NCBI GenBank assembly: GCA_012521705.1
Contig: JAAYLX010000057.1
Location: 1 to 64,000 of the forward strand
Origin: Clostridiaceae bacterium
GTDB taxonomy: Bacteria; Bacillota; Clostridia; DSM-8532
DNA length: 64,000 bases
Direction of reading: 5' to 3'
The position numbers were made by a program, and so were the translations under genes. Within the stretch, counting starts at the first letter, position 1, and every line of letters starts with the position of its first letter. The notes beneath the pieces were generated by a model that saw only the letters and a program-made list of their open reading frames with translations, did no database searches and was not told where the DNA came from. Of the stretch, positions 17,105 through 56,023 are shown one piece after another.

Positions 17105-17122
17105 AAATAAGTTGCATAAGAG

Positions 17123-17152
17123 GCCAGGCCCAATACGAGCCTGGCTTTTTTG
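17123..17152 (+). terminator. Terminator of the alcohol dehydrogenase gene
   Basis: GCCAGGC/GCCTGGC perfect 7-bp stem (17123-17145) followed by six T. Confidence 0.85.
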
Positions 17153-17168
17153 TTGCTAATTGATATTA

Positions 17169-17226
17169 TTCTTACTAAATTTAAGCATATTTAAGCTATT
17201 CACCGGAAAAGCATGCGACATAGAAT
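17169..17226 (+). promoter_or_regulatory. Putative activator-dependent promoter, copy 1 of a shared element
   Basis: A 33-bp element (17169-17201) contains two direct TTTAAGC half-sites 10 bp apart, ends in CTATTC at the -35 position, and is followed after 19 bases by TAGAAT (17221-17226). Near-identical arrangements occur at 50998-51054 and 53169-53225. It lies 93 bases before the lipoprotein start. Confidence 0.55.
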
Positions 17227-17318: not shown

Positions 17319-18182
17319 ATGTTAAAAAAAAAGAATAGTAAAACCATGCGATTCCTGTATCAGCTGACTGCCACCATTCTTATTATGATGATCCTTGTCA
17401 GTTGCGGCAGGAATACCCCTTCAGGTGGTGATAAGCCTGAAAACGAAGGAAAACCGGGAGTGACAGAACAGCAGAATAAACAGCAGGATTCAGACAAAAA
17501 ATCAGAAAAAGAAAATGATACAGGCAAATATGTTACTCCTGCAACTGCAGCACAATCTTACAGCCAATTTTTGGAGGCAAAAAGTAATATGGTCACCAGG
17601 CTTACTGATGCTTTGGCAAATAATCCGGATACCGGACTGACCTCTTTAAGTTTTATGGGCCTGGCTTTGGTGGATCTTGCGATGCTTCCTGCCACCAGTT
17701 TCGGCTTGGGTGATCAGGCAGCTGCATCTGCTCTTGGATTGTTTGGATTTCAAGATGTTGTTTATAGTGAAAACGGAGACCAATACAGCGTTAAGTATAA
17801 GAACGCTGAAGGTACTCCCTGTGAGTTGAAAGGCGAGTACAACAAAGCGGCAGATGCGCTCAAATGTACAGGATTGATAGAAGGCAAGGAAGAATTGGTT
17901 TATGAATATTGCAAAACTTCCTTCGGATATGTTGGTCAAATATATACCATTAAAGATGATGGAACATCATATGTTTATCAGATTGCAGTCAGCGGAAAGG
18001 ATGGAGTAGTCGGTATGGCTGATGCCACAGAAAATCCTGAGTCATTAACCGGAAATGAATCAATAGAATTCCCCAAACAATGCCCGGAGTGGTACTCCAT
18101 AAAGGGTGATGAGGTCACAGGACTTACCTCTGACGGTGAAAATATTTCATTCACATACACTCCAACTGAGGAAACAGAATAA
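17319..18182 (+). CDS. Lipoprotein of unknown function
   Basis: 287 residues. A lysine-rich start, a hydrophobic stretch and the lipobox LVSC place a lipidated cysteine near residue 29, followed by a low-complexity Gly/Pro/Glu/Lys linker (about 30-70) and a globular domain with no recognised motif. It should be anchored on the outside of the membrane. AAGGAGG upstream of the ATG is well spaced. It is monocistronic with its own terminator. Its promoter carries the element shared with genes at 51241 and 53288, so co-regulation with the PAS-AraC cluster is inferred. Confidence 0.75.
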   Translation: MLKKKNSKTMRFLYQLTATILIMMILVSCGRNTPSGGDKPENEGKPGVTEQQNKQQDSDKKSEKENDTGKYVTPATAAQSYSQFLEAKSNMVTRLTDALANNPDTGLTSLSFMGLALVDLAMLPATSFGLGDQAAASALGLFGFQDVVYSENGDQYSVKYKNAEGTPCELKGEYNKAADALKCTGLIEGKEELVYEYCKTSFGYVGQIYTIKDDGTSYVYQIAVSGKDGVVGMADATENPESLTGNESIEFPKQCPEWYSIKGDEVTGLTSDGENISFTYTPTEETE

Positions 18183-48882: not shown

Positions 48883-49026
48883 GCGATGAAACTTTGAAGT
48901 GCTCAAAGGGATAATACAAATAAACCTTAGAAGCTTTTTGGACAAGTAATCCGGGATTAAGGCGTAAACATAATGGAACAAACCATTTACATACTATTTA
49001 CCATGAAAATTATGAAAGAGGTAAAT

Positions 49027-49872
49027 ATGGATACTGAATATGATAAATCAGTCAATGAAGTTAGTCAAAAAGAATGTGAATGTACATTGGAGACAGAAAA
49101 TTGCGAATGCAAAGATTTGGATGATTGCGGCAAAATCCGCTGTGTTGTCGGACCACAGGGTCCTCCAGGTCCGCAGGGCCCCAGAGGTTTTCAGGGGCCT
49201 CAAGGTCCAACCGGCCCTGCCGGTCTACAAGGCCCAACAGGCTCAACCGGGCCAACAGGTCCTACCGGACCAACCGGACCTACCGGCCTACAAGGTCCAA
49301 CAGGTTCAACCGGGCCAACAGGTCCTACCGGACCGACCGGACCAACAGGTCCCACGGGTCCCGGAGCACTCGGAGGAGTGATTCCCCTTGCATCTGGTGG
49401 CACAGTAAGATTAGTAACTGAACTGGGTGGAGCGCCGTTTTTTGTAAGCGCCATTGGTTTTGGTGCGAATGCTGAATTTCCGCTGTCAGGAGGGCAACTT
49501 GATATTACTTCGGCAAATAATGTAGCATTCTCGATGCCAAGAGATGGAACAATTACTTACATTGCGGCGTTTTTCAGTATTTCAGGAGCTTTGTCGCTGG
49601 GTAATACAGTATTAACAATTACCGCGTCGTTGTTTAGCTCAAGCACACCAAACAATGTCTTCACTCAGGTTCCCGGAACAGTTATATTTTTTCCGCCGCT
49701 TACAGGTGACGTATTACCGGGAACGGTTCTAAGAGGAGCATTGAATAATCTTTCCATTAATGTCACTGCCGAAACGCGGCTAATGATGGTGTTTTCAGCT
49801 AATGCCATAGGGGGATTGATAATTTTAGTATCAGTTGAAGGATATGCCAGCGGTGGAATAAACATAATTTGA
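49027..49872 (+). CDS. Collagen-like (Gly-X-Y) protein with BclA-type C-terminal domain
   Basis: 281 residues. A 40-residue acidic, Cys-containing N-terminus ([19 protein letters not shown]) leads into ~25 Gly-X-Y triplets, mostly GPT/GPQ, then a ~150-residue beta-rich domain ([28 protein letters not shown]) of the type ending exosporium filament proteins. Likely a spore-surface or exosporium component. GAAAGAGG before the ATG at 49027 decides the start; the frame extends 18 codons upstream. The coding DNA contains a near-identical ~60-bp tandem duplication (about 49221-49350). Confidence 0.82.
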
Positions 49873-49934: not shown

Positions 49935-49962
49935 TGCCTCAAGTCCTTCGGGATTTGAGGCA
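49935..49962. terminator. Stable UUCG-loop hairpin after the collagen-like gene
   Basis: A 12-bp stem (TGCCTCAAGTCC with GGATTTGAGGCA, one G-U pair) closed by TTCG. No T run follows on the plus strand, so it may protect the 3' end or be a weak terminator. The remaining 49963-50203 contains nothing certain. Confidence 0.5.
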
Positions 49963-50203: not shown

Positions 50204-50977
50204 ATGGGAAATTATATAGAAAATAAGCAGGATGCCATTATCGAATCGTTCAAGTCACTTTTTGGGAAACAGGAGTTACTGGCTAAAGTAATCGAGTTCT
50301 TTCCCTATCCGGTGCAGTTATTCTCCCCGGACGGGACAGCGAGGCTAATTAACAAAGCGACACTGGACATGATTGGCATAAGAAGCGTCGAGGAACATGT
50401 TGGAAAATACAATGTTTTCGAAGACCCTATAGTGAGGAAGCTTGGAGTTTTGGATCAGGTCAGGCAGGTGTTGACAGGAAAAACCGTATATATAACCGAT
50501 TTTAATGTTCACTATCGGGATCTCATCCGGTATTTTAATGTGGTAGACAGGGATATTCAGATGATTAGTTCAGATATTACCTGTTTTCCCATATTAAACT
50601 CTTCCGGAGAAGTGGAGTTTTTTGCCGCAGTTTTTATATTCAAAACAGTTTACAGAGGAAAAGAAGAAATCGGTTTGGGCAGAAAGTATTTGGAAAGCCA
50701 CTGGCAGGAGCCTTTTGACCTGAACAAAACCGCAAAAGCGGCATGTCTCAGCAAGGCGCAGTTTTCAAAGCTGTTCAAGGAGCATACCGGGGTAACGCCT
50801 TATGAGTATTACATAAACTATAAAATCGGGAAACTGAAGGAAAAACTTCTTGATACCAACCTTTCCATTTCCCAGGCTTTTGCCGCCTGCAACATGGATT
50901 ATAACGGACATTCCGCGAAACTGTTCAGAAAGAAAGTAGGTGTTTCCCCGTCAGAATTCCGCAAAATGTCGTTTTAG
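50204..50977 (+). CDS. PAS-domain AraC-family transcription regulator
   Basis: 257 residues. N-terminal PAS-like sensor (about 20-160) with the EFFPYPVQLF core, then an AraC double helix-turn-helix (about 160-255): NKTAKAACLSKAQFSKLFK and a second HTH SISQAFAACNMDY ending in SPSEFRK. The same fusion recurs at 52301 and its PAS part at 53288. It probably senses a small ligand or redox state and activates nearby promoters carrying the shared element. The ribosome site (GGGTGG) is modest. Confidence 0.82.
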   Translation: MGNYIENKQDAIIESFKSLFGKQELLAKVIEFFPYPVQLFSPDGTARLINKATLDMIGIRSVEEHVGKYNVFEDPIVRKLGVLDQVRQVLTGKTVYITDFNVHYRDLIRYFNVVDRDIQMISSDITCFPILNSSGEVEFFAAVFIFKTVYRGKEEIGLGRKYLESHWQEPFDLNKTAKAACLSKAQFSKLFKEHTGVTPYEYYINYKIGKLKEKLLDTNLSISQAFAACNMDYNGHSAKLFRKKVGVSPSEFRKMSF

Positions 50978-50997
50978 ACAATTAAAAAATAACATTT

Positions 50998-51054
50998 TTC
51001 GTACTATATTTAAGCATATTCATCCTATCATACCAGCAAGGCCGTGAATAAAAT
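50998..51054 (+). promoter_or_regulatory. Putative activator-dependent promoter, copy 2 of the shared element
   Basis: Element 50998-51030 (TTC-TACT-ATTTAAGCATATT core, second half-site degenerate) ends in CCTATC at the -35 place, and TAAAAT (51049-51054) follows after 18 bases. It matches 17169-17201 at about 27 of 33 positions without gaps. Upstream of the DUF4870-like gene. Confidence 0.6.
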
Positions 51055-51240
51055 ACTAATAGTGACCAGTTGGTGAATATACTTATAGAAAGAAAAAGCG
51101 GCCGGTAAATATGGGAGTTGTTTATATTTTCAGCTTTTCAGGGCGCAACCGCTTTACAGCGTTCCCGGGGGAGATTTACCGGAACCTGGTCGGTACCCAC
51201 AATAACCAATAATCGAGATTTGAAATTAGGAGGTTGTGAA

Positions 51241-51579
51241 ATGTCAGAACAAATACAAGAACAAGTTGCCACTTTTGATCAGTCCGATATTGACAGTAAC
51301 AAGACCATGGCTGGCCTCGCCTATTTGATCTTCTTCCTGCCGCTTCTGGTTTGCCCTCAGTCCAAGTATGCTAAATTTCATGCTAACCAGGCACTTCTGC
51401 TCCTCATAGTCGCTGTTGTGGGAAATATCGTCTTAGGAATGATCCCGATAATCGGTTGGTTATTATTGCCTCTTTTTGGTCTTGCCATTTTTATTTTCGC
51501 AATCATTGGTCTTATAAACGGATTCAATGGAAAGGCAAAGCGTCTTCCGATATTTGGTAAGATTGATATTTTGAAATAA
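51241..51579 (+). CDS. DUF4870-like small membrane protein
   Basis: 112 residues. A short polar N-terminus, the motif MAGLAYLIFFLPLLV, then YAKFHANQALLLLIV and two more helices: the arrangement of the DUF4870/Tic20-like family of unknown function. AGGAGG 8 bases before the ATG at 51241 decides the start; the open frame upstream to 51118 lacks support. Followed by a lipoprotein gene 38 bases later, probably one operon under the shared promoter element. Confidence 0.75.
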   Translation: MSEQIQEQVATFDQSDIDSNKTMAGLAYLIFFLPLLVCPQSKYAKFHANQALLLLIVAVVGNIVLGMIPIIGWLLLPLFGLAIFIFAIIGLINGFNGKAKRLPIFGKIDILK

Positions 51580-51617
51580 TGTTTAAGTATCTGTTAGCAT
51601 GAAGGGAGAACAGGACG

Positions 51618-52121
51618 ATGAGGAAAATAACTCTTGCGCTTCTCATACTTTTATCTGTAAGTACTTTGGTAGCAGGCTGCGGAGTTAAGCAAAAAATCCA
51701 GCAAAAGATAGGCGAGTCGATTGTTGAGAAAGTTGTTGAAGATGCCCTCAGCGATGAAAATGCCAAAGTTGATATAGACGGAGGTAAAATCACCATTGAG
51801 GGCAAAGATGGGGAAAGCTTCTCATTTGGCGCCGGCAAATGGCCTGATGTTGATTACATACCCGAGTTTAAAAAAGGTAAAATCATCAGTACATCCAAAG
51901 ATGAAAAAGACTCTATAGCGGTAATATTTGAAGAAGTGGCAAAGAAAGATATCGAGGACTATGTGAAAAACATTAAAAAGGATTTTACAGAAGAGACATA
52001 TGAAGTTAACTCTGATGACTCCATTGTTTTTAATGGGAAAAACTCTGAAGGTGCGAGAGTGCATATTCAATATTTTATAAATGATAAGTCTCTTACAATT
52101 ATCGGCAGCAGGAGTGAGTAA
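51618..52121 (+). CDS. Lipoprotein of unknown function
   Basis: 167 residues. Signal sequence and lipobox (LSVSTLVAGC, lipidated Cys about residue 21), then a short helical segment (KQKIQQKIGESIVEKVVED) and a small alpha/beta domain. Anchored outside the membrane. Second gene of the small operon with the DUF4870-like protein; terminator at 52203. Confidence 0.75.
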   Translation: MRKITLALLILLSVSTLVAGCGVKQKIQQKIGESIVEKVVEDALSDENAKVDIDGGKITIEGKDGESFSFGAGKWPDVDYIPEFKKGKIISTSKDEKDSIAVIFEEVAKKDIEDYVKNIKKDFTEETYEVNSDDSIVFNGKNSEGARVHIQYFINDKSLTIIGSRSE

Positions 52122-52202
52122 GCTCTTCGTACCTGAGAAGGCGCCCTTGGGTATTCGCTCCCCCACCCTGTCAGACTGGCAGGGAAAAAATAAATAAACA
52201 AT

Positions 52203-52248
52203 AAAACGTCTGAGTCCGCTGAAAAAGGAGGTCAGACGTTTTATTTTA
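52203..52248 (+). terminator. Terminator of the DUF4870-lipoprotein operon
   Basis: AAAACGTCTGA (52203-52213) pairs perfectly with TCAGACGTTTT (52232-52242), followed by ATTTTA. Confidence 0.82.
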
Positions 52249-52300
52249 CAGGTTTGGCTATGGCGGTTTCATTTCAATTGATAAATTGAGGTGGATAAAT

Positions 52301-53077
52301 ATGCTGGATAACGTTGCAAATCTGCAAAATAATATTATTGAGTCACTTCAATCAATTTCCGAGAGACAGGAAATCATTGCCAAAATAATTGATTTCTTTC
52401 CTTACCCTATTCAGGTCTATGACCCGGAAGGGACATCTGTACTTGTCAATAAAGCAATGCTTGATGAGTACAATCTTACCACCCCGGAAATGATCATAGG
52501 CAAATACAATATATTTAAAGATCCCTATATTATTGAATTAAACGGAGTGGACACAGTAAAGCGGGCTTTCAGGGGAGAAACATTATATCTTACCGATATT
52601 AAAGTTCCGCTGGAAGATATTGTGGACCGGTATGGCATAAAAGATCTGGATGTGGTGGCAGCATATCAGGATATAACTCTTTTTCCCATCTTTGATGATA
52701 ACAAAAAGGTGATATATGTTGTAGCGCTTTTGATTAACAGGAGGGTTTACCGCGGCAAAAATGAAATAGAAAGGGCAAGAGAATATATCGAAACCAACTG
52801 GTTTAACAAATTTGACTTAAATGAAGCAGCAAAAACTGCATGCCTCAGTAAAGCACATTTTTCAAAGCTTTTCAAAAAGCATACCGGTGTCACTCCACTC
52901 GAATACTATACCAATTACAAAATCAGCAAATTGAAAGAAAAACTAAGAGACCCGAACCTTTCAATTACCCAGGCTTTCGCAGCCTGTAATATGGATTATA
53001 ACGGATACGCCGCAAGACTGTTCAGGGAAAAGACAGGGCTCACCCCTTCTGAATACCGGAAGGTCACAGTTAAGTAG
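52301..53077 (+). CDS. PAS-domain AraC-family transcription regulator (paralogue of 50204)
   Basis: 258 residues with the same plan: PAS-like sensor with DFFPYPIQVYDPEG, AraC HTH pair (NEAAKTACLSKAHFSKLFK; SITQAFAACNMDY) and end LTPSEYRK. It is close to the 50204 product over the whole length, with near-identical DNA-binding helices, so both may recognise the same sites while sensing different signals. GAGGTGG before the ATG at 52301 decides the start. Confidence 0.82.
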   Translation: MLDNVANLQNNIIESLQSISERQEIIAKIIDFFPYPIQVYDPEGTSVLVNKAMLDEYNLTTPEMIIGKYNIFKDPYIIELNGVDTVKRAFRGETLYLTDIKVPLEDIVDRYGIKDLDVVAAYQDITLFPIFDDNKKVIYVVALLINRRVYRGKNEIERAREYIETNWFNKFDLNEAAKTACLSKAHFSKLFKKHTGVTPLEYYTNYKISKLKEKLRDPNLSITQAFAACNMDYNGYAARLFREKTGLTPSEYRKVTVK

Positions 53078-53168
53078 AGAGTGAGGCTGATGAGCATTTA
53101 GTTTTAATCCGGCAGGAAGACCCGTCTTTGTATATTATCCCAGGACAGTAAATTCCAAGATAATTTTT

Positions 53169-53225
53169 TTCTTACTTTTTATAATCATATTTAATCTATT
53201 CTAAATTTTGGGAGGTTAATAAAAT
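53169..53225 (+). promoter_or_regulatory. Putative activator-dependent promoter, copy 3 of the shared element
   Basis: Element 53169-53201 starts TTCTTACT, has TATAATC and TTTAATC half-sites 10 bp apart and ends CTATTC; TAAAAT (53220-53225) follows after 18 bases. Upstream of the stand-alone PAS gene. Confidence 0.6.
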
Positions 53226-53287: not shown

Positions 53288-53773
53288 ATGTGTGATAAGA
53301 CGAAGGAACAACTTCTTGAGGAATTGTCGGAAGTGCAGAGAATGCTTGAAGAAAGAACCGAGATTCATGGCCAGATGATCAGAAAATTTAAGATGTTCCT
53401 GGCTAATGACAGTTTGTTTACTCAAATTATCGATTATTTTCCGTATCCTATGGCAATGTTTACATCCCAATATACACTGTCCATGGTTAACAAAGCCTTT
53501 ACAGACGCAACAAATATTCGTCTTAAGGATACCAAAATAGAAGAAATTAAAATCCTCCGATACAAGGCCGAAGATATGCAACTGGCTGCAGCCATAACCA
53601 ATGTTTTCGACGGGAAGACCTCAATTTTAGAGAATTTAAAAAACCCGTTTTCAATTTTCTCGGGAATCGATCAACAAAATCTTAAATCAGACCGCTATAC
53701 CAAGGCCACAGTTTTTCCTGTATCTTCCGATGACTCGGTGACTACACATGGCGTAATTGTATTTATGACTTAA
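53288..53773 (+). CDS. Stand-alone PAS-domain protein related to the PAS-AraC regulators
   Basis: 161 residues: an N-terminal coiled coil (TKEQLLEELSEVQRMLEERT) and a PAS-like domain with the same DYFPYPMAMF core as the two PAS-AraC proteins, but no DNA-binding domain. It may modulate them by heterodimerisation (inference). AAAGGAG before the ATG at 53288. Preceded by a copy of the shared promoter element. Confidence 0.65.
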   Translation: MCDKTKEQLLEELSEVQRMLEERTEIHGQMIRKFKMFLANDSLFTQIIDYFPYPMAMFTSQYTLSMVNKAFTDATNIRLKDTKIEEIKILRYKAEDMQLAAAITNVFDGKTSILENLKNPFSIFSGIDQQNLKSDRYTKATVFPVSSDDSVTTHGVIVFMT

Positions 53774-55326: not shown

Positions 55327-55512
55327 ATGGTTAATACAATTATCGACTTAACAGCAAAGAAGTTATCCGCACTGCCATTTATAGAAGGCATTGTTTTGGG
55401 CGGTTCACGTGCAAGGGGCACCCGCGTATCATTTGTCCAGACAGCAGAAGAATACTTCAGACAAATTGAAGTGGCTGGAAACATCTTTGCAGTGTGCGCA
55501 AAATATAAATGA
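55327..55512 (+). pseudogene. 5' remnant of a nucleotidyltransferase gene
   Basis: ATG with AAGGAG upstream opens MVNTIIDLTAKKLSALPFIE then GIVLGGSRARGT, the characteristic start of an aminoglycoside-adenylyltransferase-like nucleotidyltransferase (GGSRARGT is the first half of the active site). After ~33 codons homology ends, and the frame runs into the sequence of a TPR-Arr gene read out of frame, stopping at 55512. Interpreted as a deletion junction. The rest of the nucleotidyltransferase is absent. Confidence 0.6.
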
Positions 55513-56023
55513 TGAAAATGTTAAGAGTGCATACCCGACTTTATATGAAAACATAGCAAAATGTTATGAGCAGCTAAGTGATTTCGACAATGCTAAAAGA
55601 TATTTTGAATTATCTGAGTTGTATAAAGGTGCGCCTACTGATAAAGGGCCGTTTTACCACGGAACAAAGGCAGATTTAAAGGTAGGTGATCTATTGACAC
55701 CGGGTGGTTTTTCAAATTACAAACCTGGACTTCAAATGAATCACATTTATTTCACTGCAAATATCAATGGCGCGGTTCTTGCAGCAGCATTGGCAAAGGG
55801 CGGGGGAAGGGAACGTGTTTATATAGTTGAGCCGACAGGCGAATTTGAGAATGACCCAAATGTTACAGACAAGAAGTTTCCGGGAAACTTAACACGTTCA
55901 TATCGCTCAAAGTATCCTTTAAAGATTATTGGCGAAGAAACAGGATATTCAAAGCTTTCAAATGACGAAGCGGGCAAATGGCGAGAAAAAGTAGAGCAAA
56001 ACGAAGGAGAAATTATTAACTGA
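55391..56023 (+). CDS. arr: Rifampin ADP-ribosyltransferase (Arr) with TPR-like N-terminal part, 5' disrupted
   Basis: From about 55650 to the stop the frame encodes a full Arr domain: FYHGTKADLKVGDLL, HIYFTANINGA, RVYIVEPTGEFENDP, KFPGNLTRSYRS. Arr transfers ADP-ribose from NAD to rifamycins and inactivates them. Before it lies a TPR-like helical pair (LYENIAKCYEQLSDFDNAKRYF). The 5' end is not genuine: the only early start is a TTG inside the nucleotidyltransferase remnant, and residues before about 55440 are non-homologous. Either expression comes from an internal start or through frameshift, or the gene is dead. No promoter directly upstream other than the attenuator leader. Confidence 0.7.
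   Translation: MFWAVHVQGAPAYHLSRQQKNTSDKLKWLETSLQCAQNINDENVKSAYPTLYENIAKCYEQLSDFDNAKRYFELSELYKGAPTDKGPFYHGTKADLKVGDLLTPGGFSNYKPGLQMNHIYFTANINGAVLAAALAKGGGRERVYIVEPTGEFENDPNVTDKKFPGNLTRSYRSKYPLKIIGEETGYSKLSNDEAGKWREKVEQNEGEIIN

Follow-up and report, generated by a model that had tools for sequence, protein, structure and literature searches.

The element found in three copies in the 64-kb stretch of Clostridiaceae bacterium DNA analysed here (the window; 64,000 nucleotides) is very probably the operator and core promoter of a small regulon, which would be governed, through class-II activation, by two adjacent proteins that combine a PAS domain with an AraC-type DNA-binding domain (PAS-AraC). 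The copies begin at 50998, 53169 and 17169, where the initial annotation had placed them, and align without gaps; the -10-like hexamers 18, 18 and 19 bases past them, respectively, agree exactly with that description. A degenerate 31-mer matched three times in the window and 0 times in 100 shuffles, and a scan of the 2.25-Mb genome with up to three mismatches recovered the same three elements only, with 0 matches to a reversed control pattern. Because the pattern was derived from the three copies, their recovery alone proves nothing; the real test lies in other genomes. A loose 14-mer core occurred at background level in the organism's own genome (23 + 26 matches versus 20 + 24 for the control), and a consensus promoter and terminator scan also gave a background level.

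Two of the copies lie next to the regulator genes. Regulator 1 (257 aa; 50204-50977, + strand) joins an N-terminal PAS fold to a C-terminal AraC double helix-turn-helix (HTH), as assigned by Pfam, AlphaFold and Foldseek; regulator 2 (258 aa; 52301-53077, + strand) was assigned by Pfam and by homology to regulator 1. Pfam HTH_18 was matched above its gathering score in both (1.7e-17 and 2.6e-17), and in each protein the double HTH is C-terminal and spans ~100 residues, as in the AraC/XylS family. No PAS family was returned by Pfam for these proteins at 1e-3. The AlphaFold model of regulator 1 has a mean pLDDT of 84, and Foldseek matched the N-terminal domain of the regulator models to the PAS domains of NifL, BvgS, LOV and VqmA, and the C-terminal domain to AraC DNA-binding domains, indicating that the modelled N-terminal domain has a PAS fold. 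Identity between the two regulators is 41% over the PAS half and 69% over the HTH half, and the recognition helices hardly differ between both homologue groups. Across 29 homologues, Cys, His or Trp reaches 60% at no position of the PAS half, a result that disfavours sensing by heme or a flavin adduct. What the PAS domains detect is presumably a small molecule or the state of the cell. Homologues of regulator 1 are present in many Clostridia, tandem regulators occur in L058, L106, L112 and other loci, and the order regulator 2, regulator 1, motif and stand-alone PAS gene is common to many genomes. In the window this block is rearranged, with the motif in both halves: regulator 1, motif, DUF4870 gene, lipoprotein gene and terminator-like hairpin form the first half, and regulator 2, motif and PAS gene the second. 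A collagen-like triple-helix repeat protein is encoded directly 5' of regulator 1 (48973-49872), and a strong terminator-like hairpin lies behind its gene (~49935-49962).

The motif is conserved well beyond this genome. The degenerate pattern matched in 9 of 32 genomes of the family, with many copies in several of them, and nearly all convincing matches have a TAAAAT, TAGAAT or TATAAT box at one distance. At loci retrieved by searching with the regulator protein, the motif adjoined the regulator, with PWM scores of 31-53 against a shuffled maximum of ~13. Four such loci from other genera (L058, L059, L064 and L071) were missed by the pattern, and the motif was recovered there, beside the regulator and with scores of 31-43, by a profile built from pattern matches only. 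Among public genomes, the motif (E < 1e-6) was found at 33 of 42 loci encoding relatives of the 50204 protein, a set that includes near-duplicates (e.g., L137, L138 and L139) and in which several of the remaining loci stop at or just beyond the regulator gene. All 33 motifs lie 3' of the regulator and on its strand. Syntrophomonas wolfei subsp. methylbutyratica (L139) is a named host; a near-identical regulator-motif-PAS locus also appears on a contig filed as a Micrarchaeota archaeon MAG (L137), which is most likely mis-binned. Loci L040-L042 were dropped for chance-like PWM scores of 7-16, and the borderline L035 (genome G007; PWM 13.5, model E 2.2e-4) was left out. Of five S. wolfei-type and other genomes scanned in full, each has one site apart from the g2 genomes, in which there are six or seven.

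Comparison of these sites changed the description of the element. The initial annotation had proposed 33 bp with half-sites 10 bp apart. The element itself stands, but its conserved length is ~40-45 bp, beginning at least 9 bases before the TTC with which it had been taken to start. The 10-bp repeat is evident in the 17169 copy only, and no family-wide self-similarity was found at this shift (Z = -0.25 for a set of 25 sites and -0.58 for 34 independent, non-redundant ones). Self-similarity appeared instead at a shift of 21 bp, both in the profile of 25 sites (Z = 3.1; 0 of 500 permutations) and, again as the top shift, in the 34 non-redundant sites outside the first set (Z = 3.0; 5 of 2000 permutations). 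The conserved unit is thus a direct repeat, TAAn4TnTTCn3CTA, spaced by 21 bp; the repeat unit, TAAnnnnTnTTCnnnCTA, occupies positions -9 to +8 and +12 to +29 relative to the TTC, and the repeat is imperfect, with ~11 of 18 columns matching. In the 50998 element (+ strand), the promoter-distal half-site lies at 50989-51006 (ATAAnnnnTnTTCnnnCTA register) and the promoter-proximal half-site at 51010-51028, reaching into the -35 slot; the -10 box TAAAAT (51049-51054) begins 20 nt past CTAT, which is the conserved distance. The half-sites of the 53169 element (53160-53199, + strand) lie at 53160-53177 and 53181-53199, with the -10 box TAAAAT at 53220-53225 (+ strand), and those of the 17169 element (17160-17199, + strand) at 17160-17177 and 17181-17199, with the -10 box TAGAAT at 17221-17226 (+ strand). 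Inverted-repeat symmetry was considered and rejected, the best of 57 centres reaching Z = 2.4, below the 21-bp direct repeat. An RNA element or riboswitch was likewise rejected: no Rfam family was found in the window, and the conserved block precedes the -10 box.

The position of the -10 box is nearly invariant. Among 43 held-out sites, which were not used for building the profile, the box starts exactly 20 nt past CTAT in 36 and at 19-21 nt in 40. The held-out sites were recovered with the profile and are therefore biased toward it within the motif itself; the -10 box lies outside the scanned PWM columns. Its consensus, TA(A/G/T)AAT, is of the ordinary sigma-A TATAAT type. With the box at 20 nt and a spacer of 17-18 bp, the -35 slot consists of the last 3-4 bases of the proximal half-site and 2-3 further bases, and across the family this slot is unlike TTGACA. 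Direct-repeat half-sites ~21 bp apart, the proximal one over the -35 slot at a fixed distance from the -10 box, are the features of class-II promoters, and the layout as read from sequence is that of class-II AraC/XylS activation. The activator-type geometry first suggested from the window, in which the element overlaps the -35 slot, is backed by the fixed -10 distance across genomes.

We infer from this layout that the PAS-AraC proteins bind the element and activate, rather than repress, transcription. A homodimer, or possibly regulator 1 together with regulator 2, would bind the two half-sites of the 21-bp direct repeat; the proximal half-site would then fill the poor -35 slot, and sigma-A polymerase would be recruited to the -10 box 20 nt on. 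It is unlikely that the element is instead a repressor operator, at which the PAS-AraC proteins block the polymerase until a signal releases them. Some AraC proteins do repress without ligand, and the right half-site reaches the -35 slot, so that protein bound there could keep the polymerase out; however, the fixed 20-nt distance to the -10 box, the lack of a TTGACA-like -35 across the family and the direct repeat speak against this reading, since a site in fixed helical phase with a weak core promoter is what activation would predict, and repression has no need of it.

The distribution of the motif ties it to the regulators. In 391 genomes of the class, the regulator (E < 1e-40) and the motif (E < 1e-5) occurred together in 17, the regulator only in 5, the motif only in 5, and neither in 364 (Fisher P = 2.8e-21, a value that is only a guide because the genomes are mutually related). 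In two of the five regulator-only genomes, a weaker motif lies beside the gene (L193 and L194). This co-occurrence, together with the adjacency of motif and regulator in other genomes, supports the predicted link to PAS-AraC proteins made in the initial annotation. Three congeneric genomes with a completeness of 94-99% (G004, G006 and G009) carry the motif with its -10 box and no detectable PAS-AraC homologue; the motif precedes lipoprotein genes in G004 and G006 and lies near a contig end in G009 (sites L198-L201). With two more such genomes in the class sample, these cases could suggest that the element is the site of a different, unlinked regulator, under whose control the PAS-AraC neighbourhood would stand as well. 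We consider this highly improbable: 17 of the 22 motif genomes have a PAS-AraC gene, usually within ~200 bp, and in motif-only G117 the motif at L202, close to the end of a contig, is followed by a homologue of the window's PAS-only gene. In G004, G006 and G009 the regulator may have been lost, may fall into a draft gap or may have diverged, any of which would account for the finding; for the exceptions as a whole, draft assemblies and regulator loss are the simpler account. At a weak motif in G004, an open reading frame (L201:4637-5029, - strand) opens with a PAS-like stretch (PFPIAIFD) that runs on into a part akin to the G011 lipoprotein; it is possibly a fusion or a decayed remnant. Hardly any weight can be given to an alternative sigma factor promoter, in which the conserved block is an extended recognition region and the AraC link is incidental: the spacing from the upstream block to the -10 box is fixed, as this would require, but the -10 box is of the ordinary sigma-A type, the block of 40-45 bp with its repeated unit is much longer than a -35, and its distribution over the 391 genomes follows that of the PAS-AraC gene.

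The genes behind the three copies point to the cell surface. The first gene after the 50998 element encodes a DUF4870-like membrane protein (51241-51579, + strand; Pfam DUF4870 8e-5, slightly below the curated cut-off), and the second a DUF6591-like lipoprotein of 167 aa (51618-52121, + strand); a terminator-like hairpin (52200-52245; fold -20.9 kcal/mol, z -4.8) separates this unit from regulator 2. A DUF4870 gene is also found behind the motif in L142, L147 and L177 (directly behind it in L177), a homologue of the 167-aa lipoprotein 3' of the motif in L132, L142 and L147, and the two as a pair in L142 and L147. The 53169 element is followed by the gene of a stand-alone PAS protein of 161 aa without an HTH (53288-53773, + strand). 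This protein shares homology with the regulators over their PAS half (E of ~1e-7 to 1e-9), and its model gives Foldseek matches to PAS domains. Slightly 3' of this cluster, a rifampin ADP-ribosyltransferase is encoded (55391-56023; Arr-ms, 6.8e-43). The 17169 element lies behind a terminator-like hairpin with a T-rich tail at the end of the upstream alcohol dehydrogenase gene (17120-17152, + strand; fold -21.6 kcal/mol, z -4.3) and is followed by the gene of a 287-aa lipoprotein (17319-18182, + strand). Homologues of this lipoprotein (45-56% identical) are encoded directly behind an AraC-motif pair in L118-L120 and L124, and relatives are the second gene behind such a pair in L117 and L123. 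The presence of these relatives behind regulator-motif pairs elsewhere ties in the third copy, which is 33 kb away from the others. The motif-linked lipoprotein gene is followed in L118, L119 (7861-9240) and L120 by one whose product contains TPR-like and RCC1 repeats.

All four target genes of the window have relatives that stand behind the motif elsewhere. Among 61 distinct sites with sufficient sequence, near relatives included, the first called gene most often encodes a PAS-only protein (21 sites), followed by signal-peptide or membrane proteins (16), lipoproteins (15) and others (4); at 5 sites none was called (signal peptides and lipoboxes were called by simple patterns). SLH, Fn3 and bacterial Ig-like domains are present in the targets. 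In S. wolfei, which has one motif in its genome, the order is regulator 2, motif, PAS protein, SLH protein and lipoprotein. The small regulon of surface lipoproteins, a DUF4870 protein and a PAS protein envisaged in the window is supported by the recurrence of the same downstream families elsewhere. Its output would be cell-surface material, namely lipoproteins, SLH, Fn3 and other secreted proteins and the DUF4870 membrane protein, together with the stand-alone PAS protein. Because this last protein is homologous to the sensor half of the regulators, has no DNA-binding domain and is the commonest first target, it may feed back on the regulators; a role as co-sensor fits equally. A more elaborate scheme, which we put forward only tentatively and hold to be rather doubtful, is that one operator serves two activators with diverged PAS sensors and shared DNA-reading heads, which maybe form a heterodimer, and that the PAS-only protein, as the product of the first gene switched on, pairs with the activators and shuts them off. 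If true, the surface coats of anaerobes, syntrophs among them, would be under a self-limiting switch with two inputs.

The proposed mechanism is of a kind already known, whereas the regulon is new; no published description of this regulator or motif was found in a search of the open-access literature. The spacing of araI and its overlap with the -35 region are characteristic of AraC class-II activation. AraC (at araI1-araI2) and XylS (at Pm) share with the present regulators a double HTH and direct-repeat half-sites about two helical turns apart, the proximal one at -35; they differ in half-site sequence, in having a cupin or XylS-type sensor rather than PAS, and in controlling catabolic rather than surface-protein genes. 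VqmA, the receptor of DPO, has a PAS domain and a LuxR-type HTH, which belongs to a different HTH family from AraC. It was the top Foldseek match and, like the regulators here, combines a PAS sensor and an HTH in one short protein; at 14% identity and a TM-score of only 0.34-0.38, the likeness is one of domain folds and not of the whole arrangement. The repeats of XylS have been described with A and B boxes (PMC5481539). YSIRK-targeted surface antigen transcriptional regulators (TIGR04094), e.g., Spy1337 of Streptococcus, are likewise encoded by an AraC-family gene beside the surface-protein genes that it is proposed to control (PMC7098570). Their HTH is similar (1e-9 to 3e-10), but the regulators here have a different N-terminal domain; membership, for which the cut-off is 200 bits, was rejected at scores of 37.7 and 39.5. 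PocR-type proteins (NF047788), the best NCBIfam match of regulator 2 (1e-13), likewise carry an AraC HTH behind a sensory domain; membership was rejected here too, the scores being 40.2 and 51.2 where 500 bits are required, and the match covers the HTH part without the sensor. The ANR family (AraC negative regulators) offers a precedent, in idea only, for feedback by a small protein on an AraC-type regulator, although the PAS-only protein differs in being paralogous to the regulator through its PAS domain.

In sum, for a regulator family spread across Clostridia that are mostly known from metagenomes, this study describes the predicted operator with its promoter geometry, the regulator and a list of targets. 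The regulator and its predicted targets can be read directly from sequence, and the operator is so well conserved that a simple scan is enough to list the regulon in any related genome. The regulator family includes the cultured syntroph Syntrophomonas wolfei, in which the switching-on of an SLH surface protein and its neighbours is predicted; this may bear on cell contact in methanogenic consortia.
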